The position numbers and the translations under genes were made by a program. Below are positions 2,938-28,584 of a stretch of DNA of 64,000 nucleotides, one piece after another; position 1 is the stretch's first letter, and the number at the start of each line of letters is the position of its first letter. Under the pieces are notes generated by a model, which was not told where the DNA came from, searched no databases, and was given only the letters and a program-made list of their open reading frames with translations. The stretch is from Xylanibacter ruminicola Ga6B6. Its GTDB lineage: Bacteria; Bacteroidota; Bacteroidia; Bacteroidales; Bacteroidaceae. Location: the NCBI RefSeq assembly GCF_000687715.1, contig NZ_JHXD01000001.1, positions 124,001-188,000 on the forward strand, given 5' to 3'.

Positions 2938-3555
2938 ATGAAACAAGAAGTTAATCCTAACGAAACCAGCAGGGCACAGGCTTTTGGACTTTGGATGAAG
3001 TCGCCTGTGCCCATGGTTACGTTTACCAAAACGTTCGATGTAACGCGTTTATACAAGGTTTGCAAGCGCAGGGGCGTAAAGTTTAACACGCTGCTGTGCT
3101 GGTGTATGGGCCGTGCTGCCAGCAGCAGGCCCGAGTTTTACCTGTTGCCCGAGAACGGCAAGCTGTACAAGTACGACCGTCTGGCCATCAACGTGATAGT
3201 GAATCACAAGAAGGGCGATATCTGTTCGTGCGATGTGCCTTATAGTGATGATTTTAATCAGTTTGCAGCCGATTATCAAAGGATGACGCAAACGGCCATC
3301 GACACCTGCGAGAGCACCTTTGATGAGGAGGCGATGATTATCGGCACCTCGGCTATGACGGCCACCCAACTCGATAGCATTGTCAACCAGTACTCGGGTG
3401 TTTTCAATAACCCCTTCCTGGCTTGGGGTCGCTATCGCAAAAGTTGGTTCAAAGTGTCGCTTCCCATCTCCATGCAGTTCCATCATGCCCAGATGGATGG
3501 TGGTCATGCCGCCCAATATTTAGAGAATTTGCAGCAAATCATCAACCATCTGTAG
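2938..3555 (+). CDS. Chloramphenicol-acetyltransferase-fold protein
   Basis: This 205-residue protein has the length and C-terminal signature of type A CAT enzymes: FHHAQMDGGHAAQYLENLQ around residues 181-199 contains HHxxxDG, where the second His is the general base that takes a proton from the acceptor hydroxyl and the Asp keeps the fold. The segment MKSPVPMVTFTKTFDVT near the N-terminus also fits the family. CAT enzymes are cytoplasmic trimers using acetyl-CoA. Many chromosomal CAT-like genes in Bacteroidales are not resistance genes, and nothing nearby suggests a resistance element, so the acceptor is unknown. It follows the M16 gene by 5 nt. Confidence 0.75.
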   Translation: MKQEVNPNETSRAQAFGLWMKSPVPMVTFTKTFDVTRLYKVCKRRGVKFNTLLCWCMGRAASSRPEFYLLPENGKLYKYDRLAINVIVNHKKGDICSCDVPYSDDFNQFAADYQRMTQTAIDTCESTFDEEAMIIGTSAMTATQLDSIVNQYSGVFNNPFLAWGRYRKSWFKVSLPISMQFHHAQMDGGHAAQYLENLQQIINHL

Positions 3556-3560
3556 CCGTA

Positions 3561-3609
3561 GTTCCCCCGCATGGAACTAACGGTTCCCCAGGTAGAAACG
3601 ATGAGTTTC
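3561..3609. repeat. Left GGAAC/GAAAC inverted-repeat cluster
   Basis: Overlapping short inverted repeats follow the CAT-like gene: GTTCC (3561-3565), GGAAC (3573-3577), GTTCC (3583-3587), then GAAAC (3595-3599) with GTTTC (3605-3609) and CTATTTTT. On the minus strand the order and spacing resemble the cluster at 8739-8775 after the primase gene, suggesting one repeat family. The two clusters bracket the accessory island. They may act as bidirectional terminators, element ends, or both. Confidence 0.5.
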
Positions 3610-3610
3610 C

Positions 3611-3760
3611 CTATTTTTCGCCATCGGGTGACGGGTGATAGTGGCGAACCTCGCGGAACGAGTCCATCTGTACTACACGACCATTGCGGAAATCGAGCAC
3701 CACTACATCACTCCCAACACGCCCACCAGGGCCATTTTTCTTATCGTTTTCATCATCATT
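3611..3760 (-). pseudogene. Possible gene remnant, 50 open codons without a start
   Basis: Read on the minus strand, one frame stays open for 49 sense codons and ends at TAG (3613-3611). The predicted peptide looks protein-like: an acidic, polar N-terminal stretch, then SDVVVLDFRNGRVVQMDSF and a short charged tail. A TAG directly precedes it (3763-3761) and no ATG lies in frame upstream, although a promoter-like TACCTTTGC sits near 3786-3794 on the same strand. It could be the tail of a decayed gene or chance. I do not recognise the family. Confidence 0.3.
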
Positions 3761-3824
3761 CTAAGCATTAATTAAACAATCATACTGCAAAGGTAAAACG
3801 ATTATATTTGAAATATGCGTACAA

Positions 3825-3926
3825 ATCCCTACTATGCGGTAGGGAAATCCCTAAAGCCCGCAATTTTTCCCAGGTTAGGGAATTTTTGCGCCCTAACTAG
3901 GGAAATATTTATTCCCAGTAAGGGAA
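3825..3926. repeat. Array of TTCCC/GGGAA inverted repeats
   Basis: About 100 bp hold a run of small dyads built on the same core: TCCCTAC/GTAGGGA, TAGGGA/TCCCTA, GTTAGGG/CCCTAAC (10-nt spacer), GGGAA/TTCCC and TTCCC/GGGAA. The array lies between the possible remnant at 3611-3760 and the paired TGTGACAG sites. It has no coding potential. It may be a set of protein-binding sites or part of a replication or control region for the cassette downstream. Confidence 0.65.
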
Positions 3927-3984
3927 CAAAAACGGCCACGGGAGCATGAATGGAAAAATACTTACATCAGCGGTGGCTAAAGCA

Positions 3985-4118
3985 GGGTGCACCCACATCT
4001 GTGACAGATGTGACAGTTCAAAAACAGGGGTGCACACTTTAAAATAACTTCTATGTATATATTAATATATACATAGGCATAAATGCCACCTAAATTTTTT
4101 ATTGTCACAACTGTCACA
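3985..4118. promoter_or_regulatory. Origin- or operator-like region: GGTGCAC repeats, TGTGACAG pairs and 26-bp palindrome
   Basis: Several elements are arranged almost symmetrically. GGGTGCACCC (3985-3994) and GGGGTGCAC (4027-4035) are repeats. TGTGACAG occurs twice in direct orientation at 9-bp spacing (4000-4007, 4009-4016). The same motif occurs twice inverted at the same spacing (4102-4109 as TTGTCACA, 4111-4118 as CTGTCACA). Between them lies a perfect 26-bp palindrome, 4051-4076, with arm CTATGTATATATT. The right-hand pair ends 38 nt before the -7 box of the first cassette gene, so it could be an operator. The whole also resembles an iteron-type origin next to a primase-helicase gene. 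Function is inferred. Confidence 0.6.
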
Positions 4119-4156
4119 ACTTTGCTTTAAGTGTAGGTGGAATGGAAAAAACTTAG

Positions 4157-4165
4157 TATATTTGC
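4157..4165 (+). promoter_or_regulatory. -7 promoter element of the two-gene unknown operon
   Basis: TATATTTGC fits the Bacteroidetes -7 consensus and lies 24 nt before the ATG at 4190. No good -33 TTG lies at the usual distance, which would fit a promoter needing an activator at the adjacent TGTGACA sites. Confidence 0.6.
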
Positions 4166-4189
4166 AGCAATTATTTAATAAACGAAAGA

Positions 4190-5149
4190 ATGAGCAATAT
4201 TACTATGACGCCCGAGGCGTTTCTACAATACCTGAAGCGTAATGTGCTGGGCGATGTTGATTTCGACAGCATAGCCGGTATGAACGATGCCGACAAGCAG
4301 CATCTGATACTTAGGCAGATTGACAAGATGATAGGCATGCAGCCAGGTGCCGATGCATTAGGTTGGTACTTTACAAAGTTTCTGGACGACGATGGCAGAT
4401 GCCAGGCTGACAACCCGCTAACCGACGAGGCAAGCACCCCGCTAAGCGAGTGGCTTTACGACATGGCCGAACTGGGGCGCCTGCTGTATTGGCATCAGGC
4501 ATTCCCCCTCGAATTATTGGCACCTGAATTGGAGTATGATCCTTTTGTTGACCAAAAACTGAACTTTACTATCGACAACGAGCAGTTGGTTTCGTGGCTA
4601 AAAGTGGTGCCTTATCGCCGTGTAGCTGCTATGGTGGCACGCATTATGATGAGCACAGAGTACGATCGTATTCAGGGTTGTAACGATGCCATGCAGGATT
4701 ATTATGCCGAGCATTGCCCCATAGGCGATTTTGATGCGCAGGACGAGAAACAGGCCGACGAATTTGTGACTGCAGTAATCGATGCTCTCACAGAGATGGA
4801 ACAGCACACAGAACGAGGATATGAACTGGGGCTCGACGACGAGCAGATAAGAGTGGTGGATATGCTGTGGAGCTGGGTGCCTCACGATTATCCTGAGGAA
4901 TATGTAGCTGCAGCCAAGGATATCGTAAAAATGGTACAAAAGTTGCTGCCAGCTAAAACGGTTATCCGCAGCCGTAACGGCTTTAAGCTGTTTTACGATA
5001 CGGTGCTGCCTAAGCTGAAGGAGATAGTTGATAAACATGATGTGCCTGTAGATACCACCGATTATTACAATCTTACGATGGGCTATATGCGCGAGTGGAT
5101 GTATGCAAAATACTTAGGAGGGGTAGTGCTGGATGAATTCTTTGACTAA
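4190..5149 (+). CDS. Protein of unknown function, first gene of the primase cassette
   Basis: I do not recognise this 319-residue protein. It has no signal peptide or membrane segment, is rich in acidic residues and Trp/Tyr, and is predicted mostly helical, so it is probably a soluble cytoplasmic protein. The stretch around residues 215-285 (DEQIRVVDMLW, then a run of Lys, Val and Leu helices ending KEIVDKHDVP) faintly recalls the helical tail of type I restriction HsdR subunits; I regard this as weak. The start ATG follows an AT-rich leader without a Shine-Dalgarno site. Its last 17 nt overlap the next gene, so the two are probably translated together. Confidence 0.75.
   Translation: MSNITMTPEAFLQYLKRNVLGDVDFDSIAGMNDADKQHLILRQIDKMIGMQPGADALGWYFTKFLDDDGRCQADNPLTDEASTPLSEWLYDMAELGRLLYWHQAFPLELLAPELEYDPFVDQKLNFTIDNEQLVSWLKVVPYRRVAAMVARIMMSTEYDRIQGCNDAMQDYYAEHCPIGDFDAQDEKQADEFVTAVIDALTEMEQHTERGYELGLDDEQIRVVDMLWSWVPHDYPEEYVAAAKDIVKMVQKLLPAKTVIRSRNGFKLFYDTVLPKLKEIVDKHDVPVDTTDYYNLTMGYMREWMYAKYLGGVVLDEFFD
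5116..5123 (+). promoter_or_regulatory. Strong Shine-Dalgarno site inside the upstream gene
   Basis: AGGAGGGG ends 9 nt before the ATG at 5133 and lies inside the end of the preceding coding region. Canonical Shine-Dalgarno sites are uncommon in Bacteroidetes. It supports the start choice and suggests independent or enhanced initiation of the second gene. Confidence 0.6.
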
Positions 5150-6155
5150 CAGGTACCCTCAGGATCAGCCATCTTACGGCGCAACCTTAAACCGCGAACG
5201 CCTGCTTGGGGATGCCGATAGGCTTTTCTCAATCCGATGGCTGATAAACAGACTATTTAGCGAAATAAAGCAGTTGCTTATTAACGACTACAATTTGCAG
5301 AGCCACAAGTTCTTTTTCGCCATCCGCCAGCAGCCCGAATTGTGGTTTGCCTGGCACATGCTTAAGCACCATCAGGCATCGCTGGCAAAGGTAGAAGAGT
5401 ACAAGCAGATGTTTCCCGAGAATGGTAACTTTATCGCGGCACTACGCGAAGAGCGCGAAAATGTTATCAAGCAGTTTATGAAGTTTGTGCCCTCTAAGCA
5501 GTGGGATACATTGCGCGATAACGACGACTCGTGGCGCATCTATGCCAAAAGGTTATACCAGGCCAACTCAAAAAATCCACAGATCGAACTCGAGTTCTTT
5601 GCGCTGGTGGATTATATCTGTGTAATGACCGATGCTCTTTGCGGCAACTGGAACCTGCTGTTTCCTAGCGACGAGGATAATACCGACATGCAGACCTATA
5701 TCGACCAAGGCGCCACCAGCAACAATCAGGAGATGGCTGAGATAAAGACGGTACTGAAAACGCTGCTAAAAAGCGCATGGTTTGATAAGTTCTGTGACGA
5801 CAGTAAGAAATACGATACCCACTGGCGCGATAACTATATCGACGCTCTGTTCAAATCAGATTACGGTCAGGAACTGGTAATTGGCTGGGACAAGAAACAG
5901 ATACAGATAAAAGGTTATGTGCTTGGTTGCTTGTATGCATCAGGCGTATTTTGCAAGGGTGTAAAAATGCTGGCAATAGCCAAAGAGATACTATCGCCAT
6001 TTTATCCCACTAAGAATACTGATGCACAGGTAAAGCAGGAATGGCAGAAAAAAAGTTCGTCGCTCTCCAACTATATGGGCCAGGCCGACCAACAGAAATT
6101 CTACGATTGGGCCATCAAGTTTATCGAGGCCGACGACAATCAAAAACTCGATTAA
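5133..6155 (+). CDS. Protein of unknown function, second gene of the primase cassette
   Basis: The product has 340 residues and no recognised domain, signal peptide or membrane segment. It is rich in Trp, Tyr, Phe and Lys and looks all-helical and soluble. The C-terminal segment (about residues 300-335, including WQKKSSSLSNYMGQ and FYDWAIKFIE) is the most motif-like part. It overlaps the preceding gene by 17 nt and has its own strong Shine-Dalgarno site. A set of 11-bp repeats begins at its stop codon, followed by a terminator. The tight pairing suggests the two proteins form a complex or act in one process, possibly with the primase-helicase. Confidence 0.75.
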   Translation: MNSLTNRYPQDQPSYGATLNRERLLGDADRLFSIRWLINRLFSEIKQLLINDYNLQSHKFFFAIRQQPELWFAWHMLKHHQASLAKVEEYKQMFPENGNFIAALREERENVIKQFMKFVPSKQWDTLRDNDDSWRIYAKRLYQANSKNPQIELEFFALVDYICVMTDALCGNWNLLFPSDEDNTDMQTYIDQGATSNNQEMAEIKTVLKTLLKSAWFDKFCDDSKKYDTHWRDNYIDALFKSDYGQELVIGWDKKQIQIKGYVLGCLYASGVFCKGVKMLAIAKEILSPFYPTKNTDAQVKQEWQKKSSSLSNYMGQADQQKFYDWAIKFIEADDNQKLD

Positions 6156-6187
6156 CACTCGATTATAGTTCGATTAGCGTTCGATTG
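6147..6187 (+). repeat. Four 11-bp tandem repeats of YTCGATTA/G
   Basis: CTCGATTA, CTCGATTA, TTCGATTA and TTCGATTG begin at 6147, 6158, 6169 and 6180, an exact 11-bp period, about one helical turn. The first copy contains the stop codon of the second unknown gene (CTC GAT TAA). The last copy is also the left arm of the terminator at 6178-6208. Equal helical phasing suggests binding of a multimeric protein along one face of the DNA. Confidence 0.7.
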
Positions 6188-6217
6188 ATGAAAAGCGTCA
6201 ATCGAACGTTATTTTTT
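6178..6217 (+). terminator. Intrinsic terminator after the two-gene unknown operon
   Basis: CGTTCGATTGA (6178-6188) pairs perfectly with TCAATCGAACG (6198-6208) across a 9-nt loop, followed by a T-rich tract (TTATTTTTTT). It should separate the transcript of the two unknown genes from the primase gene, which has its own promoter. Confidence 0.8.
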
Positions 6218-6313
6218 TGTATTAAAATCAGTAGATTTTTAAAAACGCAAACGTCTGATAATCAGTCGGTTATAAATTGTATACAAAATAAAACAAAAAT
6301 ATTTCGGAAATTG

Positions 6314-6345
6314 TTTGGTGGGCACTCATCGAATAGTACATTTGC
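6314..6345 (+). promoter_or_regulatory. Promoter of the primase-helicase gene
   Basis: TTTG at 6314-6317 and TACATTTGC at 6337-6345 are separated by 19 nt, a near-consensus Bacteroidetes promoter. The ATG at 6373 lies 27 nt after the -7 box. The primase-helicase can therefore be expressed separately from the two upstream genes. Confidence 0.75.
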
Positions 6346-6372
6346 ACCGTCAAAACCAAATTTTATCTATTT

Positions 6373-8700
6373 ATGTTAAATTACATTTCAGTTCGAAACG
6401 GCCACAAGGTGGCACGTCGAGTACAGGACCGCGAGGAATTTCTCGCATTGCGTAACACAGAGACTAACCTCTCTAATCTCTCACTTGCCCGCACGGGCGA
6501 TGCAAAAGCTAAAAAGGCTTTGGTGCAGTTTGCTTACAACGATTTGATGCCCGATGGTCGAGTGGCTGGATGCTGCCATCCCAGCGACTGGTTCTTCCAC
6601 GACATCGACTGCTACGACGACAATCAGGCCCAGGAGATGAAGGAAAAAATCTTTTCAGTAAAAACCGAAATCGGTCTGGGCTTGCTCGAACGTTCGGCTG
6701 GTGGCGGATTCCATCTGGTTTGCCGTCGTGAGTTGGGAAAAACCATCCTCGAGAATCAGGTGCGAATAGCTTGCATACTGAAGATTGAGATGGACACCAA
6801 CTGTAAGAATCTGAGCAGGGTGGTATACTCAACCAGTGGCAGCGCCGACGATTTGCTTTATCTGGATGATGCCATCTTTGCCGACACCATCAGCGTAGAG
6901 GAGAGCGAGCGCGAGTACAAACTATTAAAGGAACGCGAGCGCAAGGGGCTGGAACAGGTGCCTGCCGAAGCCAAGCACGAACGCAAGCACTACAAGCCCT
7001 GGGAGGATGACGTGAAGCCCGATACACCCGTAAACGCCACACCCAGCACCACCACGCTAGCTGCCGGCCAGTTTCCTAACGAGTATCACGGCCATACGTT
7101 CCAGGAAATCATCGCTAAGTACTGGGAGATAACCAATCACGGCTACGAACCCACTATTGGCGACCGCGACACCAAGACCTATCAGCTGGCTCGCGACCTG
7201 CAGCACATCTGTGCCCGCAACTTTGATTGGCTCAACCAGGTGATACCCTGCTACAACGGCTTTACACTCGAAGAGAAACAGGCCAAAATACGCAGTGCCC
7301 TGCAGAGCCCCTACGAGGGCATGCCCCGTACCATACAGGAGGTGCTGAATGCACTTGAGGGTGATACTGATAGCGCTATCTGCGAACCCAAGGCGGCACC
7401 CACCGATTTCTTCTTCAACGCACCCCAGCCTCCCGCATTCCCTGCCGATCGCAAGTTGCCCAAGCTTATCCGTCTCATCACCTCGCGTGCACCTTACATC
7501 TATAAGCCCGCTGTGGCCGAAGCAGCATTCCCCTCGCTGGGCATCCATCTGCACGACACCTGGTTTAATTACACCGACAATGTAAAGCACGAGGCAACAC
7601 TCATGAACTGTCTGGTGGGCGAATCAGGTTCAGGTAAAGGCTGCATCGACGCACCCATCGACCACATTATGGCTGATATCCGAGAACGCGATGCCATCAA
7701 TCTGAAGCGTGAAGACGAATACAAGAAAGCAGCCGAAGCAAGGGGAGCCAATAAGGATCAGCCCCTTCGCCCTGAAGGATTGGTTATCCAGGAGATTACA
7801 GGCGATGTGACAAACGCGGCACTCGTAACCCGAATAGACGAGGCGCAGGGCCGATTTGTATATGTGAAGCTGAACGAGATCCAGATGTTCGATGCCTTGA
7901 AAGGCAACGGCAAAGCAGGCCTGCAGTACACGCTGATGTGCCTGTCGTTCGACCCCAATAACCGCTATGGTCAGACTCGTCGAGGCGTAGGCTCAGTATC
8001 TAAGATTGTGTGTGTACGCTTTAACTGGAACGCATCTACCACACCTAAAAAGGTAAAAAGCTACTTTAAGTCGGTAGTAGAAGACGGACCCGTACAGCGC
8101 ATTAACTTCAGCACCATACCTGTGTGCGAGATTGGAGCCGAACAGCCCGTATTTGGTGAGTACGATGCCCAGTTCGATGCCGACCTGAAACCCTATCTGG
8201 CTAACCTGTTGGCTGCCAGCGGCACCATCAATTGCCCCGAAGCATTCAAACTGGCCAAGAAACTGCAGAAAGAGTGTCAGGATATGGCCGTACTATCACA
8301 GAGCCGTGTGTTCGATAGTCTTACCCACCGTGCTTTGGTGATTGCTTGGCTTAAGGCTTGTGTACTCTATGTGGCCAATGGCTATGAATGGGAAAAGGGC
8401 ATCGAAACCTACGTGCGCTGGGCGTTGCAGAACGATCTGTGGTGTAAGATGCACTATTTTGGTGCGATGCTGGAGAATGGTCAGGAAGCATACGCCGAAC
8501 CCAAGCACGGCCCTCGAAACCAGCTGATGATGCTGCCCGATGTGTACACACTCGACGACCTGAAGACCGTACGCTTGAAGTGTGGCATGGACGAAAAAGG
8601 AGCCGATGCCCAGAACCGACAGTGGCTTTCGCGTAAGTTTGTGACAGTTGTGACAGATAAAAAAGGAGTATTCAAGAAGCTGAAATACCTCTCAGCCTAG
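6373..8700 (+). CDS. BT4734-like primase (AEP-type) fused to a P-loop DUF3987-type helicase domain
   Basis: The 775-residue protein has two modules. Residues 1-200 match the BT4734-like/VirE_N domain: FFHDIDCYDD carries an Asp77-x-Asp79 pair and SAGGGFH ends at His114, the DxD and sxH patterns of archaeo-eukaryotic primases. Residues 340-775 form a DUF3987-type ATPase with Walker A GESGSGKG (416-423) and a Walker-B-like YVKLNEIQ strand (Asn501-Glu502), with no canonical DE. A sensor-like FNWNASTTP follows. Such fusions are linked to replication of mobile elements or to DNA repair and defence; the role here is unknown. The 3' end (about 8640-8657) contains a tandem TGTGACAG pair like those at 4000-4016 and 4102-4118. 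Confidence 0.85.
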   Translation: MLNYISVRNGHKVARRVQDREEFLALRNTETNLSNLSLARTGDAKAKKALVQFAYNDLMPDGRVAGCCHPSDWFFHDIDCYDDNQAQEMKEKIFSVKTEIGLGLLERSAGGGFHLVCRRELGKTILENQVRIACILKIEMDTNCKNLSRVVYSTSGSADDLLYLDDAIFADTISVEESEREYKLLKERERKGLEQVPAEAKHERKHYKPWEDDVKPDTPVNATPSTTTLAAGQFPNEYHGHTFQEIIAKYWEITNHGYEPTIGDRDTKTYQLARDLQHICARNFDWLNQVIPCYNGFTLEEKQAKIRSALQSPYEGMPRTIQEVLNALEGDTDSAICEPKAAPTDFFFNAPQPPAFPADRKLPKLIRLITSRAPYIYKPAVAEAAFPSLGIHLHDTWFNYTDNVKHEATLMNCLVGESGSGKGCIDAPIDHIMADIRERDAINLKREDEYKKAAEARGANKDQPLRPEGLVIQEITGDVTNAALVTRIDEAQGRFVYVKLNEIQMFDALKGNGKAGLQYTLMCLSFDPNNRYGQTRRGVGSVSKIVCVRFNWNASTTPKKVKSYFKSVVEDGPVQRINFSTIPVCEIGAEQPVFGEYDAQFDADLKPYLANLLAASGTINCPEAFKLAKKLQKECQDMAVLSQSRVFDSLTHRALVIAWLKACVLYVANGYEWEKGIETYVRWALQNDLWCKMHYFGAMLENGQEAYAEPKHGPRNQLMMLPDVYTLDDLKTVRLKCGMDEKGADAQNRQWLSRKFVTVVTDKKGVFKKLKYLSA

Positions 8701-8721
8701 CCGCAACCGTTGAATTTAAAC

Positions 8722-8779
8722 CTTTGGTCCCAAAGTAGGAAACTGTCAGTGCCTTTCGTAGAAACTGGCAGTTTCTCTA
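8722..8779. terminator. Right GAAAC/GTTTC inverted-repeat cluster, likely terminator
   Basis: CTTTGG/CCAAAG (8722-8735) is followed by GAAACTGTCAG (8739-8749), which pairs with CTGGCAGTTTC (8765-8775), then TCTATTTTAT. AGAAACTG and CAGTTTCT at 8760-8776 are also inverted repeats. The layout resembles the cluster at 3561-3609 at the other end of the island. It probably ends primase transcription. Confidence 0.6.
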
Positions 8780-8848
8780 TTTTATATATTTATGGAAATC
8801 ATTCCTGTGATATTCACACTTAATAAAAAGCAAAATCTTTGCTGATAA

Positions 8849-8932: not shown

Positions 8933-10567
8933 ATGATTAAAAGAACTATTTTTACCATCGTGCTGGCAACTGCGGCTATGGTGGTACAGGCACAGGAGTG
9001 GTTTAAAACGGATAGCGTCACTATTCAGGGACGTATCGAAGGGTATGATGCAGAGCAGTTTGGTTTTACGTCGATGTCGGACACATTCGACGATGTGTTT
9101 GAGAAGGAAGGCACGGTTCTAGTGTTGGATATCAACGACGACGGCACGTTCTGCAAGAAGTTTAAGGTAAGTTATCCTGTAAGACTTTCGTTCTCGGCCG
9201 ACGAATCGAAAGTGGGATTCAAAGGTATGAGAATTTTTGCCCGACCAGGCGAGACGATAGATGTGACCGTAGCCAAGGATGCCAACGGCAAGTATCAATG
9301 CCGATATAATGGCGGCAGCAGTAGCGAGGTGCAACGATGGTTGCGCTCTGGTTGGAAGTTTTCTGAATTATCGCGTGCCATGTGGCGATTCAAGGGCAAG
9401 CTGGATGAGGCTAACCTTGCGGCTGAAATGCTGTGGCAGATAGTGAACGACAGCCTGCAGCAAGTGGCTAAACGTGAAGGCTACACACCGCTGGAGATGC
9501 AGTTGGCTCAGGCCGATATACAGGCGAGATTTGGCGAGGGATACTTGACTTACGTGGCGAACCACGAATCAGACCTGATAAAGTGGGAGCAGCGCGATGG
9601 GAAATATCACAAGGTGATAACCGATAGTGCCGAATGGCAGAAAAAGAGGGATTACGATACCTACAAGCCGTTGAAGCACGTAGACTTTACTAATCCGCTG
9701 CTATTTGCCAGCGATGACATATCTAGTCTGCTCAATCGCATGCAGTATGCCGAGGTGGTTTGGGAGGATAAAAACAAAGGGGTAACTAATGAAATGGGCA
9801 ACATAGAGATAAACTACGACATATATGTTAAGGAACTATCTAACTACAGAACCGCCCTTAACAAACTTACTGGCGGCAAGGATAACCTGATGACCCAGTT
9901 GTGCGTGTATAAGACCTTTGCTATCCGTTTTGACCACTGGCGCAGCTATGATGACGATATACCAAAGATAAAGGTCGACACCCGATTGACCAAGGCCGAA
10001 AGGGAAAAGGTGTTAAAAACCTGGCCCACTCTAGATATGATGACAAAGCTATACATCAGCGCACTTCCGCACTCATACTTACGCCAAAAGGCCGAGCAGT
10101 TTATGGCCATTAAACTGGCGCAGAAAGACTTGGCCGCACCGCTGCCCGATAAGCCTATGGCCGACCTGATACGTAAGCTATCGGCCAAATATCCCGGTCG
10201 AATCCTGGTGATAGATTTCTGGGGTATGACTTGCGGTCCTTGTCGTTTAGCTATACAGACAAGCAAGGATCTGCGCGCAGAGATTGCCAAGCGCAACGAT
10301 GTAAAGCTGATATTTATAGCTGGCGAGCGCACCACAGAGGGTAGCGAAGCTTACAAGAAATACGTGGCCGAGTGGCTGGCAGACGAGGAGACGGTGTGCG
10401 TAACCAATCAAGACTTCGCCAAACTGCGCGAATTGTTCCAATTCAACGGCATACCACACTTCGAGACCTTCACGCCCGACTGTCGTCGAGTGCGCGATGA
10501 CCTGCAGATACACGGCTATAATGCTTTTGACTACGAACTGCAAATGCTCATAGACAAACTGAAATAA
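8933..10567 (+). CDS. Secreted thioredoxin-like (TlpA/ResA-type) thiol-disulfide protein with long N-terminal domain
   Basis: The 544-residue protein has a signal peptide (residues 1-20, ending VVQAQ). Residues 25-130 form a beta-rich domain like those before thioredoxin folds in many Bacteroidetes proteins. A long helical middle segment follows, then a C-terminal thioredoxin fold from about residue 415. The redox motif is CGPC (Cys434, Cys437) after IDFWGMT, and GIPHFE supplies the cis-Pro loop. The active site is intact, so periplasmic disulfide reduction or exchange is likely; the partner is unknown. It has its own promoter and faces the BlaI/M56 pair, with a shared terminator. Confidence 0.85.
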   Translation: MIKRTIFTIVLATAAMVVQAQEWFKTDSVTIQGRIEGYDAEQFGFTSMSDTFDDVFEKEGTVLVLDINDDGTFCKKFKVSYPVRLSFSADESKVGFKGMRIFARPGETIDVTVAKDANGKYQCRYNGGSSSEVQRWLRSGWKFSELSRAMWRFKGKLDEANLAAEMLWQIVNDSLQQVAKREGYTPLEMQLAQADIQARFGEGYLTYVANHESDLIKWEQRDGKYHKVITDSAEWQKKRDYDTYKPLKHVDFTNPLLFASDDISSLLNRMQYAEVVWEDKNKGVTNEMGNIEINYDIYVKELSNYRTALNKLTGGKDNLMTQLCVYKTFAIRFDHWRSYDDDIPKIKVDTRLTKAEREKVLKTWPTLDMMTKLYISALPHSYLRQKAEQFMAIKLAQKDLAAPLPDKPMADLIRKLSAKYPGRILVIDFWGMTCGPCRLAIQTSKDLRAEIAKRNDVKLIFIAGERTTEGSEAYKKYVAEWLADEETVCVTNQDFAKLRELFQFNGIPHFETFTPDCRRVRDDLQIHGYNAFDYELQMLIDKLK

Positions 10568-10572
10568 TATAA

Positions 10573-10622
10573 GCCCCTCGCTGCTGATGGAGAGAGAGAG
10601 TAACCTTCAGCGGGCGAGGGGG
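10573..10622. terminator. Bidirectional terminator-like hairpin between convergent genes
   Basis: GCCCCTCGC...TGCTGA (10573-10587) pairs with TCAGC...GCGAGGGG (10607-10622), with a small bulge and a loop containing GAGAGAGAGAG. It lies between two converging genes and could stop transcription from both sides, although the flanking T-runs are weak. Confidence 0.55.
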
Positions 10623-10643
10623 TAAGCATGGTAATGATTGGGG

Positions 10644-12005
10644 TTATTTTTTTGACGCGTTATTCTTTATACCCGATGGAATGGATACGGGCGTGGTAAT
10701 CAGATTTACCACGTTGACATTGCCTTTGCGGTGGTTTTCGATTTTCTTGAGCACAGAATAGTGCAATTTGGGTGCGCTATTCTCATCGAAAGGTACACCA
10801 TCGAGCTGTATCTTGGTGGTCTTGCCTGCGAATGAGAATCTGTCCCAGCTTACTTCTATCCAAGAATCTTCGTCGTCTTCTACCCAGCAACCCTTTGGTA
10901 CACGGATCTGATAGAAAAAAGAGTTGTTCTTATCGATGGCGATGCCATTGTCGTGTATAACCGCGCTGATACTGATAGAGCCAGGTGCACCTGGAGTTAT
11001 TGTCTTGGCTTGCTCTTTCTGCTCATCGGTAAATACCCATACGAGTGAGTTTTTTAAGTTTATAGTGTCAGGTGCGACAGCGGTTGGCGTTACATGATTG
11101 GTAGGTTTGGGCTTAAACTCAGTCACCGTCTTTGCCGTTGCTACCAACGATACTGCTACTATGGGGGCGATATAAAGGGCTTTGAGCCATGCTCGCCTGT
11201 TTGACTTATGTTTTAACATCATGAAAATTCGTTTTTTAATGGTGCTGTTGTTGATGCCATTGGCTAGGATACTGGCCTTTGTACCCATCGCCTTCCGCAT
11301 CAGTAGTTGAATGTATTGACTCACGTCTGAGTCTGACGAGAGGACGGATGCATCGGCTTCGTACTCATGGACGGTTCGCAGGTCGCGACGCAGGAGCCAT
11401 ACCACAGGATTGAACCATTGCAGGGCCGTAAGCATTTCGACGAAGACGATATCCCAGCTGTGATGCAGGCGGATATGTCCACGCTCGTGGGCAAGTATCG
11501 AAGGGTTGCGCTCATCGTAGTCAATCCGGCTTAACACGATGGTACGCATCCACGAGAACGGTGCAACAGGCAGGTCGACAACTGCCAGCGTTACATCATC
11601 CTCCAACGTATGTTGCTCACTATCACTAATAATTCGGCGCAAAAGCCGATAACTGTTGGCTATAAAGAATAATCTACAAAGTACACCAATCATAAAGATG
11701 GCAAAGATAACGGCTGACTGATCAACAGGAGCCATCTGTACGCTATCTGCGGCCGTTACAGCCGGCATATCCGTGATGGGCGATTGTGGATTAGGATTAG
11801 CCGTTGCAGTGGTTTGTTCTACCTCTACCGTTTCATGGAAAGTGATGACACAAAGGGGCAGAACGAGCGAGAGGGCAATGGATGATAATAGCACGATACG
11901 GTTAAGTCTGTGAAACGTTTCACGCTCCATCAGCAGTCGATAGCAGAAGTAGAATACCGCTATCAGTACGGCTACCTTCAGGTCGTAGGTCAGAAATTCA
12001 GTCAT
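10644..12005 (-). CDS. M56 (BlaR1/MecR1-like) membrane metallopeptidase
   Basis: The 453-residue protein has membrane helices near residues 8-25, 38-56, 98-118 and 285-302. A cytoplasmic zinc-protease loop carries HERGH (His173-Glu174-His177), and the downstream EYEADA element typical of M56 is present. The outer C-terminal part (about 305-453) is not a penicillin-binding domain, so the signal need not be a beta-lactam. In BlaR-type systems the sensor becomes an active protease and removes the BlaI-type repressor. The start ATG shares its last base with the BlaI stop codon (TAATG), so the two are translationally coupled. Confidence 0.9.
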   Translation of the reverse strand: MTEFLTYDLKVAVLIAVFYFCYRLLMERETFHRLNRIVLLSSIALSLVLPLCVITFHETVEVEQTTATANPNPQSPITDMPAVTAADSVQMAPVDQSAVIFAIFMIGVLCRLFFIANSYRLLRRIISDSEQHTLEDDVTLAVVDLPVAPFSWMRTIVLSRIDYDERNPSILAHERGHIRLHHSWDIVFVEMLTALQWFNPVVWLLRRDLRTVHEYEADASVLSSDSDVSQYIQLLMRKAMGTKASILANGINNSTIKKRIFMMLKHKSNRRAWLKALYIAPIVAVSLVATAKTVTEFKPKPTNHVTPTAVAPDTINLKNSLVWVFTDEQKEQAKTITPGAPGSISISAVIHDNGIAIDKNNSFFYQIRVPKGCWVEDDEDSWIEVSWDRFSFAGKTTKIQLDGVPFDENSAPKLHYSVLKKIENHRKGNVNVVNLITTPVSIPSGIKNNASKK

Positions 12006-12379
12006 TACTTGCGATTCTTTATGATTTCCATAATCTCACTTACTTCCTCATCGCTCAGATGCTCATCCTTGGCAAAGAACGAAACGAGCGAGGCGAACGA
12101 GCCACCAAAGAACGTGTTCTTCACCTCTTTCATATAGGCGCGTGTGTAATCCTCTTTGCTGATGGTGGTGCTGAAAAGCTGTGCTTTTCCTATCTTTTCC
12201 GAGCTCACAAAGCCTTTCTCCTTGAGTATCTTCAAGAATGTGAGCAGCGTGGTAAGAGCTGGCTTTGGTTCAGGGAATTTCTCCATAATCTCCGACGAAT
12301 AACCCTTACTCTCTGGCAACGACCAGAGTATGTTCATCACTTGCGTTTCAGCCTTAGTCAATTGTTTCTTTTCTTTCAT
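12005..12379 (-). CDS. BlaI/MecI-family winged-helix repressor
   Basis: The 124-residue protein has the compact BlaI/MecI layout: an N-terminal winged helix (LTKAETQVMNILWSLPESKG; FPEPKPALTTLLTFLKILKEKGFV) and a C-terminal dimerisation segment. It should bind dyads as a dimer and be inactivated by the co-encoded M56 protease. Three dyads with core CTAAnnnTTTAG lie between 12381 and 12461, covering its promoter and ending 2 nt before its ATG, so strong autorepression is likely. Only this operon carries the dyads in this window; other targets may lie elsewhere. Confidence 0.9.
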   Translation of the reverse strand: MKEKKQLTKAETQVMNILWSLPESKGYSSEIMEKFPEPKPALTTLLTFLKILKEKGFVSSEKIGKAQLFSTTISKEDYTRAYMKEVKNTFFGGSFASLVSFFAKDEHLSDEEVSEIMEIIKNRK

Positions 12380-23458: not shown

Positions 23459-26400
23459 ATGAGTTTCAAAGCAAAGAAAACAGCCTTAGTTGCAGGATTG
23501 TGCTTTTTAGGCATGGCTCCTGTACAGCAGGCTTCGGCAGCTACCGCAGCAGTAGCTTCCGTACAGCAAACGAAGCAGGCAACCGGTTATGTAGCTGACT
23601 CACAGGGTCCGCTGATTGGTGCCACGGTTATGGAGAAGGGTACTAATAATGGTACCGTTACCGATTTCAACGGCTTCTTCACTCTTAATGTAAAGCCAGG
23701 TGCAACAATTGTTGTATCTTATGTAGGCTATGTATCGCAGGAGATTAAGGCCGGCGATAACTTAAAAATCAATCTTAAGGAAGACGGCCATGTTGTAAAC
23801 GAGGTTGTTGTTATCGGTTACGGTACCCAGCGTCGTGAGGCCGTTACCGGTTCTGTTGCAAACATTGGTGGTGAGAAACTTAACCAGGTTGCAGCTACTA
23901 ACGCCGCTCAGGCTCTGCAGGGTCGTGTAGCTGGTGTTTTGATGACACAGACAGGTTCTAAGCCTGGTGATGAGATGCAGATTCGTATTCGTGGTCAGCG
24001 CTCACTGAGTGCAAGTAACGACCCATTGATCGTACTCGATGGTATTCCATTTATGGGTCAGCTTTCAGATATCAACCCTGCCGACATCAAGTCGATGGAT
24101 ATCCTGAAGGATGCTTCTGCCACCGCTATCTACGGTTCGCGTGGTGCTAACGGTGTAATCATCATTACTACAGTAAAGGGTACACAAGGCACACCTGCTA
24201 AGGTTACATATAATGGTTATATATCGTTTAAGAAGGTATTCCACAAGTATCCTATGATGGATGGTCCTACGTTCAACAAGTTCCGCCAGTATGCTGGTAA
24301 GTATAAAAACTCACTCGACGAGAGCGAGACAACCAATACCGATTGGCAGGATCTGTATTACAAGACCGGTGTAAGTCACAATCATGATGTAAGCGTTGCT
24401 GGTGGTACAAATGGTGGTAGCTACAGCTTTGGTGCCGGTTACTATCATGATGAATCAGTACTTCCTACTGAGGGTTACGATCGTATCTCTGTTCGTGGTA
24501 ACTTCGACCAGACTGTTGGAAAGTACTTCCGTTTTGGTTTGAGTACCAACAACAGCTATCGTAAAACTCAGGGTGTTAACAATATGTATGCTGTATTGTG
24601 CGCATCTCCGCTTTCAAGTCCATACGATGAGAACGGTAATCTGAAGCGTTACAACACTCTGCCTGCAGATGACCAGGTTGTAGTAACCAAAGAGACTGTT
24701 GAGCGCGATAAGGATGTATGGTTGAGCGAAAACAAAGGTATCGGTTCTTACAATACGTTGTTTGCAGAGGTTAAGTGCCCATGGATAGAGGGACTGAGCT
24801 ATCGTGTAAACGTAGGTCTGAACTTCCGTAGCTCTAAGGGTGGCAGTTTCACTGGTACTGGTATTAATAATAAGGATGCTAATGCTGTTAATAGCGGTAG
24901 TATATCAGAGAATCAGACTCGTAACTGGGCTGTTGAGCATCTGCTGACCTTTGATAGAACCTTTGCAGAGAAGCATAATCTGAATGTTGTTGCTATGTAC
25001 TCTGCCGAGCAGACTACATATGAGTCTACTGGCGCATCGGCTCAGGAGATTCCTGCTGATTACATGCAGTATTATAATCTGTCGTACGCTACAGGCGAAG
25101 TTAACTTGAATAATTATAGTTACTGGCAGAGTGGCCTTATCTCTTGGATGGGTCGTGTGATGTACTCTTATGATAATAAGTATATGCTTTCGGCTGCCCT
25201 TCGTTCGGATGCTTCATCACGTCTGGCTAAGGGTCATCAGTGGCACACCTATCCTGCAGTAAGTGCTGGTTGGAACATTGCTCGTGAGCAGTTCATGGAG
25301 AACCTTACTTGGATTGACAACTTGAAGTTGCGCGTAGGTTATGGTGAAACTTCTAACCAGTCTATCAACCCATATTCTACCTTGGGTACCCTTTCAATCC
25401 GTAACTATAACTTTGGCGATACCTATAAGGCAGGATATTATGTATCATCTCTGCCTAATGTGGATCTTGGATGGGAGTATTCTAAGACATGGAACTTCGG
25501 TCTCGACTTCTCTTTGTTCAATGGTCGCCTGTCTGGATCATTCGAATACTATGTCCAGAAAACAAATGACATCCTGCTTGATGTTACCATGCCTTCAACT
25601 TCTGGTGTAGGCAGCTATACTGGTAACATTGGTAAGACCGAGAATAAAGGTTGGGAGTTAACTCTGAATGGTATCATCCTCGACAACAAGAACGGATGGA
25701 ACTGGGAGGCTGGTATCAACCTCTATGCTAACCGCAATAAACTGACAGCTCTGGCATCAGGTGCCGATCGCGATGAGGCTAACCGCTGGTTTGTTGGTTA
25801 TCCTATCGACGTGATCTACGACTATGAATATGAGGGCCTGTGGAACCAGAGCGATATCGTAACTGGTCCTGATGGCAAGACTAACCTTGAGGCTCTGGTA
25901 AAAGGTGGTAATGTGGGAATGATTAAGGTAAAGTATACTGGCGACTATGATGCAAACGGCATACCTACTCGTCAGATAGGTCCAGAGGATCGTCAGATCA
26001 TCAGCATGGAACCAAAACTGATGGGAGGTTTCAATACCACTGTTGGTTATAAGAACTTCGACCTGACTGTTATTGGTGCCTTCCAGGTTGGTGGTAAGCT
26101 CATCTCTGCTATCCACTCTTCAAGCGGTTACCTGAACATGCTGACAGGTCGTCGTAACAACCTCGATGTTGACTACTGGACCGAGGAGAACACGGGTGCT
26201 AAATATCCAAAACCAGGTGGTATCCAGGATGGTGATAACCCCAAGTTCGGTTCTACACTGGGTTATTTCGATGCTGGCTATCTGAAGATTCGTACCATTA
26301 CACTGGGTTACAACTTCGACAAGCTGAAGGCTGTGAAGGATCTTGGTATCAGCCGTCTGCGCCTCTATGCTACTGTTCAGAATCCATTCGTTCTGTTCTC

Positions 26401-26566
26401 ACCATTCAACAACGAGAGCGGACTTGATCCTGAGACCAATTCATGGGCAAACCAGAATACAGCTGTGGCTGTTGATGGATACACAGGTAAGCACAAGATG
26501 CCAATCGTAGGTTACAACACACCTGCTACCCGCAATTTCTTGGTTGGTGTTAACGTTACATTCTAA
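23459..26566 (+). CDS. SusC-like TonB-dependent outer-membrane transporter
   Basis: The 1035-residue protein has a signal peptide, then a carboxypeptidase-D-like domain (TGYVADSQGPLIGATV to about residue 110). The hinge VVNEVVVIGYGTQ leads into the plug domain (RIRGQRSLSASNDPLIVLDG, DILKDASATAIYGSRGANGVI), then a 22-strand barrel ending in the aromatic FLVGVNVTF. It imports oligosaccharides captured by the SusD partner, powered by TonB. It lies downstream of the HTCS gene and 22 nt before SusD. Preference for GGT, CGT and AAC codons suggests high expression. Confidence 0.95.
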   Translation: MSFKAKKTALVAGLCFLGMAPVQQASAATAAVASVQQTKQATGYVADSQGPLIGATVMEKGTNNGTVTDFNGFFTLNVKPGATIVVSYVGYVSQEIKAGDNLKINLKEDGHVVNEVVVIGYGTQRREAVTGSVANIGGEKLNQVAATNAAQALQGRVAGVLMTQTGSKPGDEMQIRIRGQRSLSASNDPLIVLDGIPFMGQLSDINPADIKSMDILKDASATAIYGSRGANGVIIITTVKGTQGTPAKVTYNGYISFKKVFHKYPMMDGPTFNKFRQYAGKYKNSLDESETTNTDWQDLYYKTGVSHNHDVSVAGGTNGGSYSFGAGYYHDESVLPTEGYDRISVRGNFDQTVGKYFRFGLSTNNSYRKTQGVNNMYAVLCASPLSSPYDENGNLKRYNTLPADDQVVVTKETVERDKDVWLSENKGIGSYNTLFAEVKCPWIEGLSYRVNVGLNFRSSKGGSFTGTGINNKDANAVNSGSISENQTRNWAVEHLLTFDRTFAEKHNLNVVAMYSAEQTTYESTGASAQEIPADYMQYYNLSYATGEVNLNNYSYWQSGLISWMGRVMYSYDNKYMLSAALRSDASSRLAKGHQWHTYPAVSAGWNIAREQFMENLTWIDNLKLRVGYGETSNQSINPYSTLGTLSIRNYNFGDTYKAGYYVSSLPNVDLGWEYSKTWNFGLDFSLFNGRLSGSFEYYVQKTNDILLDVTMPSTSGVGSYTGNIGKTENKGWELTLNGIILDNKNGWNWEAGINLYANRNKLTALASGADRDEANRWFVGYPIDVIYDYEYEGLWNQSDIVTGPDGKTNLEALVKGGNVGMIKVKYTGDYDANGIPTRQIGPEDRQIISMEPKLMGGFNTTVGYKNFDLTVIGAFQVGGKLISAIHSSSGYLNMLTGRRNNLDVDYWTEENTGAKYPKPGGIQDGDNPKFGSTLGYFDAGYLKIRTITLGYNFDKLKAVKDLGISRLRLYATVQNPFVLFSPFNNESGLDPETNSWANQNTAVAVDGYTGKHKMPIVGYNTPATRNFLVGVNVTF

Positions 26567-26588
26567 CAATATTAAAGAATTAATAATT

Positions 26589-28556
26589 ATGAAAACTAAA
26601 AGTATAAAATATATTCTTGCTGCGGGTTTGGTTTGCTGTGGTCTTTCCACAACATTCACCTCATGCGGTGATGTGCTCGATGAGCAGCCACGCAGCACTT
26701 TCGACCCATCATTCTTCACAACGAAGACGGGTATTGAGGGCGGTCTGACATCGCTCTACGCTCACCTGCGCTATTTCTATGGCAACGGTTACTACCTGAA
26801 CACCCTCGAGACAGGTACCGATGAGTACACATACGCACAGAGTGCCGATGGTAACTTTAAGGATGCCGACCTTTCTGGTGTAGGCTCTGTTACTTCTACT
26901 AGCACTGTTGCTGGTGGTGCATGGGGTACCCTGTTTGCAAATATCAATACCTGTAATGGTATCATAGAGAATGGTGCTGCTGCTGGTATCGACGATGCTC
27001 TGCTCGCTGAGGCTTATTTCTTCCGTGCATTCGACTACTTTATCCTGGTACAGACCTATGGTGGTGTGCCTCTCGATCTGGGTGCAGGCGAACTGAAGTT
27101 CAATACAACAACTATTCGAACCTCTGTACGTAACACTGTTCCTGAAGTTTATAAGGTCATTTTTAGTGATCTCGAGAAAGCTTTGACTGATCTTCCTGAT
27201 AATCCACGTCTTAAAGGTTCTGCTACCAAGAATCTGGCTCGTTTGTACCTCTCTAAGGCATATCTTACTTACGCATGGTGGTTAGAGAATCCTAATAACA
27301 TTCCTACCTATCCTGAGTGCAGCCGCGACGCCGGCCAGGCCCAGAGTTATTTCCAGAAAGCTTTCGATATGGCCAAGCAGGCTATCGACAACCCTGGCCC
27401 TTACGGTCTGCAGCCTACATTCTATGATGTGAACGTTGCTACCAACGATCGTAACTCAGAAATTATGCTCTACGCTGATCACAACGAGAATGAGAAGTTT
27501 GGTAACGGAGGTGCTGGTTACGGTTGGGGTAACGGCGGTTCTCCTGAGAACTTTGCTTACTGGATGGAGACTTGGAACTATACAGAAATGATTGCAAAGA
27601 CTGATAGAAAGAATGATAAGGGTGAAACCGTTTATATCAACCCCGTTCAACGTGAGGCTGTTCAAGCTCTTGGACGTCCTTGGACACGTATGGCTCCTAT
27701 CGCCGACAACTTCATGGAAGGTGGTGTATGGGAAGATGCTGTAAAGGCTATTGACTCTCGTTATGATGCAACTTTCACGCTGCGTTATCACACCAACTGG
27801 CATAAGGCAGGAGGCAGCGATGCGTTTGTATACGGTGCCAATGGTGAGAAGATCTATCCAAATGATGTTTACTTCAGCTGGGTTCCTGAAAGTGAGGATG
27901 AAAACATCAAATATACAGGTGCTGATGAAAAGCTTGGTTTCGGAGAAATGCCTGGTCGTGCTGACTTTGTTGTAGCTGTTAACCACATCAGCCGCAAGAA
28001 GTACCCCATCAACTGGAAGATTGGTATCTATCGTACAGATAATGATGGAGGTCTTGGTTCAAAGGTTAATGGAGGTAGTCCACGTCCTTGGAACGTAGCA
28101 AAGTTCTCTGAGTTCTATCTCATTGGTGCTGAGGCTGCTGTTAAGCTCGGCAAGAACGAGGATGCAAAGAAACTGGTTAACGTGCTCCGTGCCCGTGCAG
28201 GAAAGCAGACTTTCAATCAGAATGACAATGTTGCTGTATCAGTAGATAAGAGCGCCGAAATGGTAGCTGCTACTCCTGCTACTATCACTATCGACTTTAT
28301 CCTCGACGAGCGTAGCCGTGAGTTCTGGGGTGAGGGATACCGTTGGTTCGACCTCGTTCGTACTCAGAAGTGGGGTGAGCGTGCTGGTACCTACCGCATC
28401 GCTGGTGCTGGTTACACCGATAAGGATCTGCAGACAGTTAAGCGTGATATTCCTGCTGGTTACTACATCCGTCCTATCCCACAGGGACAGCTCGATGGTA
28501 TGGAGATGACCGACGAGGAGAAGACTGCTTATCAGAATCCCGCATACAGAAATTAA
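26589..28556 (+). CDS. SusD-like surface glycan-binding lipoprotein
   Basis: The 655-residue protein is the partner of the upstream SusC. I start it at ATG 26589, giving a type II signal peptide MKTKSIKYILAAGL with lipobox Cys26 in FTSC; an earlier in-frame start would add 15 unrelated residues. The SusD helical TPR scaffold is visible (ARLYLSKAYLTYAW; FSEFYLIGAEAAVKLG; ERSREFWGEGYRWFDLVR). It should cap the SusC barrel at the cell surface and bind glycan. It ends 29 nt before a strong terminator. No enzyme gene follows on this strand. Confidence 0.94.
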   Translation: MKTKSIKYILAAGLVCCGLSTTFTSCGDVLDEQPRSTFDPSFFTTKTGIEGGLTSLYAHLRYFYGNGYYLNTLETGTDEYTYAQSADGNFKDADLSGVGSVTSTSTVAGGAWGTLFANINTCNGIIENGAAAGIDDALLAEAYFFRAFDYFILVQTYGGVPLDLGAGELKFNTTTIRTSVRNTVPEVYKVIFSDLEKALTDLPDNPRLKGSATKNLARLYLSKAYLTYAWWLENPNNIPTYPECSRDAGQAQSYFQKAFDMAKQAIDNPGPYGLQPTFYDVNVATNDRNSEIMLYADHNENEKFGNGGAGYGWGNGGSPENFAYWMETWNYTEMIAKTDRKNDKGETVYINPVQREAVQALGRPWTRMAPIADNFMEGGVWEDAVKAIDSRYDATFTLRYHTNWHKAGGSDAFVYGANGEKIYPNDVYFSWVPESEDENIKYTGADEKLGFGEMPGRADFVVAVNHISRKKYPINWKIGIYRTDNDGGLGSKVNGGSPRPWNVAKFSEFYLIGAEAAVKLGKNEDAKKLVNVLRARAGKQTFNQNDNVAVSVDKSAEMVAATPATITIDFILDERSREFWGEGYRWFDLVRTQKWGERAGTYRIAGAGYTDKDLQTVKRDIPAGYYIRPIPQGQLDGMEMTDEEKTAYQNPAYRN

Positions 28557-28584
28557 TTAGTTAGATAACCACTCTCTCTATCAG

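Follow-up and report, generated by a model that had tools for sequence, protein, structure and literature searches.

What is a primase-helicase gene, preceded by two overlapping genes of unrecognised families, doing in the chromosome of Xylanibacter ruminicola Ga6B6? The question is raised by a stretch of 64,000 nucleotides (positions 124,001 to 188,000 of contig NZ_JHXD01000001.1, assembly GCF_000687715.1), which we call the window and whose numbering we use unless another locus is named. An original prediction, made from the sequence alone, described a mobile or defence-like cassette of three genes, and these are indeed in place as plus-strand open reading frames: gene A (4190–5149), gene B (5133–6155), and a primase-helicase fusion (6373–8700), hereafter the primase. 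Our answer is that the segment 3990–8700 is probably a chromosome-resident iteron replicon of mobile-element ancestry, working in the manner of the ori/crr arrangement of the phage satellite P4.

The case starts immediately left of gene A, with a structure that had been overlooked. At 4000–4121 there is a short repeat, R, followed by an AT-rich palindrome and then by an inverted copy of the repeat, R'. The left R array (4000–4016, plus strand) consists of two TGTGACAG units with a 9-bp period. The palindrome (4051–4076), which forms the centre of this origin-like structure, is perfect over its 26 bp, has 13-bp arms, and reaches an AT fraction of 0.846, and the R' array (4103–4121, minus strand) lies 69 bp left of gene A. 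When 3990–4130 is folded as single-stranded DNA, it gives −23.7 kcal/mol (z −5.07), and none of 200 shuffles is as stable.

A third R array, TTGTGACAGTTGTGACAG (8639–8656, plus strand), is found within the last codons of the primase gene, where it encodes residues 756–762 and overlaps the first strand of the wing in the winged helix described below. The R pattern TGTGACANNTGTGACA has three sites in the whole 3.47-Mb genome, all of them in this cassette, and its reversed control has none. We found no description of an R-palindrome-R' origin in the titles and abstract openings of the open-licence literature, of which coverage was partial, and the parts of PMC5512222 and PMC10434189 available to us contain nothing on such a structure.

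Is this anatomy peculiar to one locus? Homologues of the fusion occur at no fewer than 15 loci of this genome and in 23 of 60 genomes (this one included), all in the same genus; the 24 of these 60 that belong to other genera have none. A scan of named genomes found 346 relatives, and 58 of the best 80 are titled Prevotella or Prevotellaceae. The locus set used from here on has 115 members and includes these best 80 of the 346. Four pairs share an identical primase 3' segment, so that 111 loci are distinct (113 with another segment).

An AT-rich palindrome lies within 9 kb upstream of the primase at 35 of the 115 loci, at 31 of the 70 that have more than 4 kb of upstream DNA, and at nine of the 15 loci in the Ga6B6 genome. 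A control of 400 kb from that same genome contained no such palindrome at AT cuts of 0.75, 0.80, or 0.85. Please note that L083 and L199 have no flanking sequence and were excluded from all array tests. The pairwise array match test was run on 33 loci, among them the duplicate L193 and a near-duplicate, L138; the covariation and extra-R tests cover the 31 loci without these two, which form 28 clusters at 80% primase identity.

The R unit varies between loci and agrees within a locus, and the spacer between palindrome and array has a median of 33.5 bp on each side (30 loci). An inverted left-right match of at least 14 is seen in 25 of 33 own pairs, as against 5.6% of pairs made between different loci. 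The left R likewise matches the R at the 3' end of the primase gene in 27 of 33 own pairs, as against 6.2% of other-locus pairs. Searching each whole locus with its origin arrays brought up 36 further R sites in the 31 loci; 28 of these fall within 430 nt at the primase 3' end, one per locus and without exception in the same orientation. Control searches that used the R of other loci gave means of 8.6 sites overall and 2.6 in the 430 nt. The third array is coding in some loci and lies just past the stop codon in others, and since it is kept in either position, what is conserved is the DNA and not the protein alone.

A left R and a 3' R that point the same way in 28 of 28 cases, in a locus that is patchily distributed, would also suit recombination or transposition ends, that is, direct repeats between which the segment excises as a circle. 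We consider this very improbable. The interval between the R arrays does not take in all the genes that are conserved with the loci: 22 of the 35 palindrome loci have a divergent HU-type gene to the left of the origin, and 23 of the 35 have a lysin-type gene to the right of the primase (an M15 peptidase, a DUF5675 protein, or a member of cluster c12, which has no Pfam match and which we take to be a lysozyme). These counts cover all 35 palindrome loci, with gene clusters drawn by single linkage; in some of the loci, Rha/KilAC-type and DUF3127-type genes lie between the HU and lysin genes, and the A-B cassettes L066, L138, L141, and L142 have neither of the two.

Recombinases point the same way. 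No transposase or recombinase family is represented among the cassette's three proteins, the search for transposases being limited to Pfam scans of the cassette and of part of the flanking genes. A tyrosine recombinase gene lies near only one of the 15 own-genome loci (C3:64 kb; L061 9318–10199), and this may be a chromosomal Xer-type gene rather than part of the element. No circular contig was found either; R-joined empty sites as such were not searched for.

Which part of the primase, then, goes with R? Across the 31 loci, R similarity follows the similarity of the helicase (rho 0.62), of its C-terminal part (rho 0.60), and of the winged helix with the R codons removed (rho 0.63), each with a Mantel p of 0.001. 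For the AEP half rho is 0.13 (p 0.033), and for the linker 0.08 (p 0.22). It is important to remember that Mantel p-values do not remove relatedness, for which the AEP half serves as the internal control. L079 and L158, for example, have a common R and a helicase identity of 86%, with an AEP identity of 18%. Because the AEP half sits between the origin and the helicase, mere linkage is a poor account of the trend, and from this covariation we infer that it is the C-terminal half of the primase, helicase and winged helix, that binds R.

The protein itself has 775 residues. Alignment places AEP-type motifs at residues 77–79 (DxD), H114, and D141, and the Walker A lysine at K422. In the AlphaFold (AF2) model, which has a mean predicted local distance difference test score (pLDDT) of 82.8 and a predicted template modelling score of 0.56, the AAA+ part (residues 359–714) matches MCM helicases (Z 15.5, 3.9 Å over 269 residues). 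Foldseek gave three matches at E ≤ 0.001, all MCM, with a template modelling score of 0.24 by query length. The matches that it listed are nearly all MCM, as are all 50 structural matches listed in the Z-scored comparison, and no SF3 helicase is among those listed. Residues 724–770, approximately, form a helix-helix-hairpin that reads as a winged helix. The fusion is thus predicted to be an AEP primase, by its motifs, joined to an MCM-like AAA+ helicase and a winged helix in one chain.

Sequence searches say less. The fusion had been described as a BT4734-like primase joined to a DUF3987-type domain, and some of its relatives fit this: of 20 aligned members of the family, five match DUF3987 and three match BT4734-like_N. 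The window protein matches neither model, and Pfam as a whole gave nothing for it. PHROGs returned a weak "DNA primase" match (E 0.0026), and PDB sequences yielded no match when searched with the primase alone and none below E 0.2 when searched with the three profiles.

Some observations on the family belong here. In an alignment of L052–L086 the primases are mosaic: their helicase halves are highly similar while the AEP halves joined to them have little similarity, and the break falls in the linker. L057 (444 residues, from the Ga6B6 genome) is a homologue with no AEP half. Six loci (L054, L055, L058, L062, L069, and L080) have tandem 8–10-bp repeats, such as TAATTCGTG, in the AEP-helicase linker, roughly between +520 and +710 of the primase gene; in L054 they match the origin arrays.

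Between gene B and the primase gene there is further structure. A phased TCGATT block (6148–6211, plus strand) has four units at 11-bp spacing, followed by a terminator-like hairpin that was picked up by the terminator scan, and it is kept in close A-B cassettes. We surveyed the eight closest cassettes having both A and B (the window, L067, and L138–L143; L056 and L063 lie outside the survey), and all eight carry three to five units, with 11 bp as the usual spacing and, in some, a single step of 21–22 bp. Reading by eye, we also noted a palindrome, CTGATAATCAG, at 6255–6265 of the window; it is the TGATAATCA core that is seen in the same eight cassettes. The TCGATT repeats, hairpin, and TGATAATCA core are likely, to judge from sequence, to be a regulatory block of the close A-B cassettes.

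Could the R arrays be no more than another set of control sites? They would then be operators, bound by the primase (or by A or B) next to where gene A begins and again at the gene end for control of expression, and there would be no origin. The position of R' just left of gene A fits this, iteron initiators commonly autoregulate, and the block between B and the primase is a second conserved element of regulatory appearance. We nevertheless hold operators to be unlikely, as they need neither a long AT palindrome with flanking inverted arrays nor a third copy in fixed orientation at the 3' end. Moreover, R covaries with the helicase/winged-helix half of the primase, whereas A is found in only 17 and B in only 14 of the 115 loci (both in 11, or 10 distinct, L067 being the same as L144).

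What of A and B themselves? Gene A encodes an all-helical protein of 319 residues and gene B, which overlaps it by 17 nt, one of 340. The claim that both are undescribed withstood every search: neither has a Pfam, NCBIfam, or PADLOC match at E ≤ 1, A has none in PHROGs, and B has two weak ones there (E 0.13 and 0.21), both to families with no function assigned. Enlarging the A and B families to 15 and 13 members brought no Pfam model at E ≤ 0.01. The suggested fold search, run on A, yielded a good model (pLDDT 87.1) but no matching fold: Foldseek had nothing at E ≤ 0.001 (best E 0.83), and VIA gave Z scores of at most 5.4, which count as no match, although a fold absent from the list is not thereby excluded. 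The C-terminal part of B recurs in other primase loci, joined to other N-termini.

It is by their company that A and B can be placed. In the gene-neighbourhood survey of the 60 genomes, all nine matches of A and all eight of B are in loci with a primase homologue, as the proposed tie to the primase had it. No match of either lies away from a primase, so these are not genes that occur mostly without one.

Variable partner genes before a conserved core, many diverged copies per genome, and a patchy distribution are also features that an anti-phage or conflict cassette might have, with A and B as effectors or sensors and the primase-helicase sensing or amplifying DNA. PADLOC matched none of the three cassette proteins to a known anti-phage defence system and so gave no positive evidence for defence, no known effector domain was found in A or B, and defence has no need of a private origin-like code. 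We regard a defence role as distinctly unlikely.

Comparison with known systems brings us back to a replicon. In the P4 record (X51522.1), the alpha gene runs from 6969 to 4636, the type I repeats of ori are found 2348–2444 bp upstream of where it begins, and its 3' end is followed directly by crr, which contains the ori repeats as well. The distances are close (−2348 to −2444 for P4 alpha, −2373 to −2252 for the window primase), and in both systems short repeats upstream of the operon recur at the 3' end of the initiator gene. Both also unite primase, helicase, and winged helix in one polypeptide, the P4 side of this likeness being taken from the available part of PMC4234260.

There are differences too. 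The P4 primase is of Toprim type, according to the same part of PMC4234260, whereas the window protein has AEP-type motifs. P4 crr lies past the stop codon with repeats in both orientations, whereas the third array here is single, has one orientation, and across loci is often coding. None of the three genes corresponds to P4 int, sid, delta, or psu, the last three of which were not searched for. Since the primase type differs and there is no integrase at the locus, the cassette is not a member of P4.

The primase has a closer parallel in pRN1. Its initiator, in the portion of PMC4234260 available to us, is an AEP-helicase-winged helix protein, with a large stem-loop proposed as the origin and no iterons. 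The single protein with these three parts and the stem-loop near its gene are shared; in contrast to pRN1, where the stem-loop lies downstream, the window has iterons, a stem-loop upstream, and an AAA+ domain that matches MCM. Taking the arrangement shared with P4 together with the pRN1 comparison, we would describe the cassette as built on an anatomy like that of a P4 ori/crr replicon with a pRN1-like primase.

Two further comparisons are worth making. The PICMI satellites of Vibrionaceae, as far as the accessible part of PMC10803314 goes, are small elements with variable genes of no assigned function just before a primase whose search model includes DUF3987; in one PICMI satellite, a primase of this type is needed for normal circular copy numbers. 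Unlike the cassette, in which none of these was found, they have an integrase, AlpA, and 17-bp direct repeats by fis; for AlpA, the negative follows from the absence of any Pfam match to A and B. Families of BT4734-like_N/DUF3987 and AEP proteins from mobile elements are treated in PMC5862659, and relatives of the fusion match both of these Pfam models. That paper, in the part available, names AEP families and domain fusions and describes no origin or private repeat.

How might such a replicon operate? The helicase/winged-helix half would bind all three R arrays, the two of the origin and the distal one, with the DNA probably looping, and would melt or extrude the AT palindrome, after which the AEP domain would lay primers for the host polymerase. 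The distal R array would act like P4 crr, as a site required in cis or as a copy-control site. Expressed before the primase, A and B would serve as accessory factors or regulators.

Several results weigh against a resident replicon and should be set beside those that favour it. The window's own left-right R match scores 13, below the cut of 14. Most loci have no demonstrated palindrome, as the test was passed by only 35 of 115, and of the six own-genome loci that failed it, five have 6.6–7.3 kb of upstream DNA. No third R site was found in L053 or L086, and that of L054 is located in the AEP-helicase linker. The agreement of R with the helicase is imperfect as well, since L072 shares R with L176 and L215 (0.80–0.83) at 40–41% helicase identity.

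No firm sign of a mobile or autonomous state was found either. There is no PF00589 tyrosine integrase at the locus, and the nearest on the contig of the five such genes in the genome is about 71 kb away, which bears out the earlier statement that the locus has no integrase. Exactly overlapping ends, the sign of a circular form, were seen in none of 31 whole contigs (30 distinct). A plasmid search gave no matches, none of the 27 IMG/VR stretches that matched the two peptide patterns used was confirmed as a relative, and phage records supplied two short unannotated unverified virome records only.

Finally, L138 (Xylanibacter ruminicola SIG140), which is the closest relative, has its copy of the cassette in the same place as the window. 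The check for a block that is absent from sister genomes gave the original prediction no support: L138 has it, and no empty site was found, the loci with a CAT or M16 gene (about 35–71% identity) showing no other gene of the window set in about 1.5 kb on each side. DNA identity between L138 and the window is 95% over 5.1 kb of cassette, 91% in the left flank falling to 82% over the last 206 bp, and 86% in the right flank. Mobile origin, as ancestry, does receive indirect support: the A-B-primase cassettes of L141–L143 stand in other surroundings, the available flanking DNA containing nothing that matches the M16, CAT-like, TlpA-like, or BlaR/BlaI genes of the window, and homologues have the patchy distribution given above.

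The immediate surroundings of the cassette merit a short description. The gene remnant suspected near the left end is real: at 3610–3790 (minus strand) there is the remnant of a BamE-domain lipoprotein-like gene, of which L138 has a longer copy at 7051–7320 (minus strand; BamE match, E 1.4e-5), the window being without 171 bp of it. Next to it, the CAT-like acetyltransferase gene is intact in the window (2938–3555) and has lost about 500 bp in L138 (at 6900–7000). Right of the cassette, at 8933–12379, lie a thioredoxin-like gene and a BlaR1/BlaI-type pair (M56 peptidase and penicillinase repressor), which are absent there in L138. L143 7–2323, about 8 kb left of the L143 primase, matches window 26243–28567, 17.5 kb right of the window cassette, at 75% DNA identity. 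Rfam gave nothing at gathering scores, and the window contains no tRNA.

Two GAAAC/GTTTC hairpins of terminator-like form flank the three genes: one after the CAT-like gene, on the host side (3595–3617, plus strand), and one after the primase gene (8739–8783, plus strand). The pattern GAAACN3-8GTTTC occurs in the window only at 3595–3609 and 8761–8775 (expected, 0.31; two of 100 shuffles reach two), and GAAACN3-8GTTTCNCTATTTT has two sites in the whole genome, exactly these hairpins, with none for the control. With a looser form that has a T tail, the genome gives five sites and the control 11, and hairpins of this general type are therefore not enriched.

The related repeats reported at the two ends are therefore real. 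As transposon or element ends they were rejected: by eye they are not seen after the primase stop in L139–L143, the loose form is not enriched, and the three proteins include no transposase family. Comparing left and right ends gave nothing above shuffles in L141 or L142, nor in the window by the same method; in L138 it gave one direct match, which scores 20 where the null maximum is 19. The hairpins look like terminators of the CAT-like gene and the primase; a simple terminator scan listed neither, so that this comes from reading the sequence.

In the assembly of the Ga6B6 genome, eight of the 15 loci are within about 5 kb of a contig end (C8, C10, C16, C22, C28, C36, C40, and C41), and assembly breaks thus seem to cluster at these elements.

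What would it mean if resident replicons of this kind are real? We offer, tentatively and as a possibility rather than an expectation, that a large class of resident replicons without integrases, as yet undescribed, is housed in the chromosomes of Prevotellaceae, with at least 15 related loci here. Each would use a private set of iterons, recognised by the helicase/winged-helix half of its initiator and repeated in a third array where the initiator gene ends; such replicons might fire in place or leave as satellites, and their private codes would allow many of them to coexist without incompatibility. If this is true, the AEP-DUF3987-type proteins, a widespread family of which one genome scan found 346 relatives, would gain a function-level account; Bacteroidales chromosomes would be seen to have an ori/crr arrangement like that of P4; and there would be a natural series of matched initiator-repeat pairs that may show how a winged-helix initiator picks its iteron. 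It would also raise the question of why one genome retains fifteen or more such loci.

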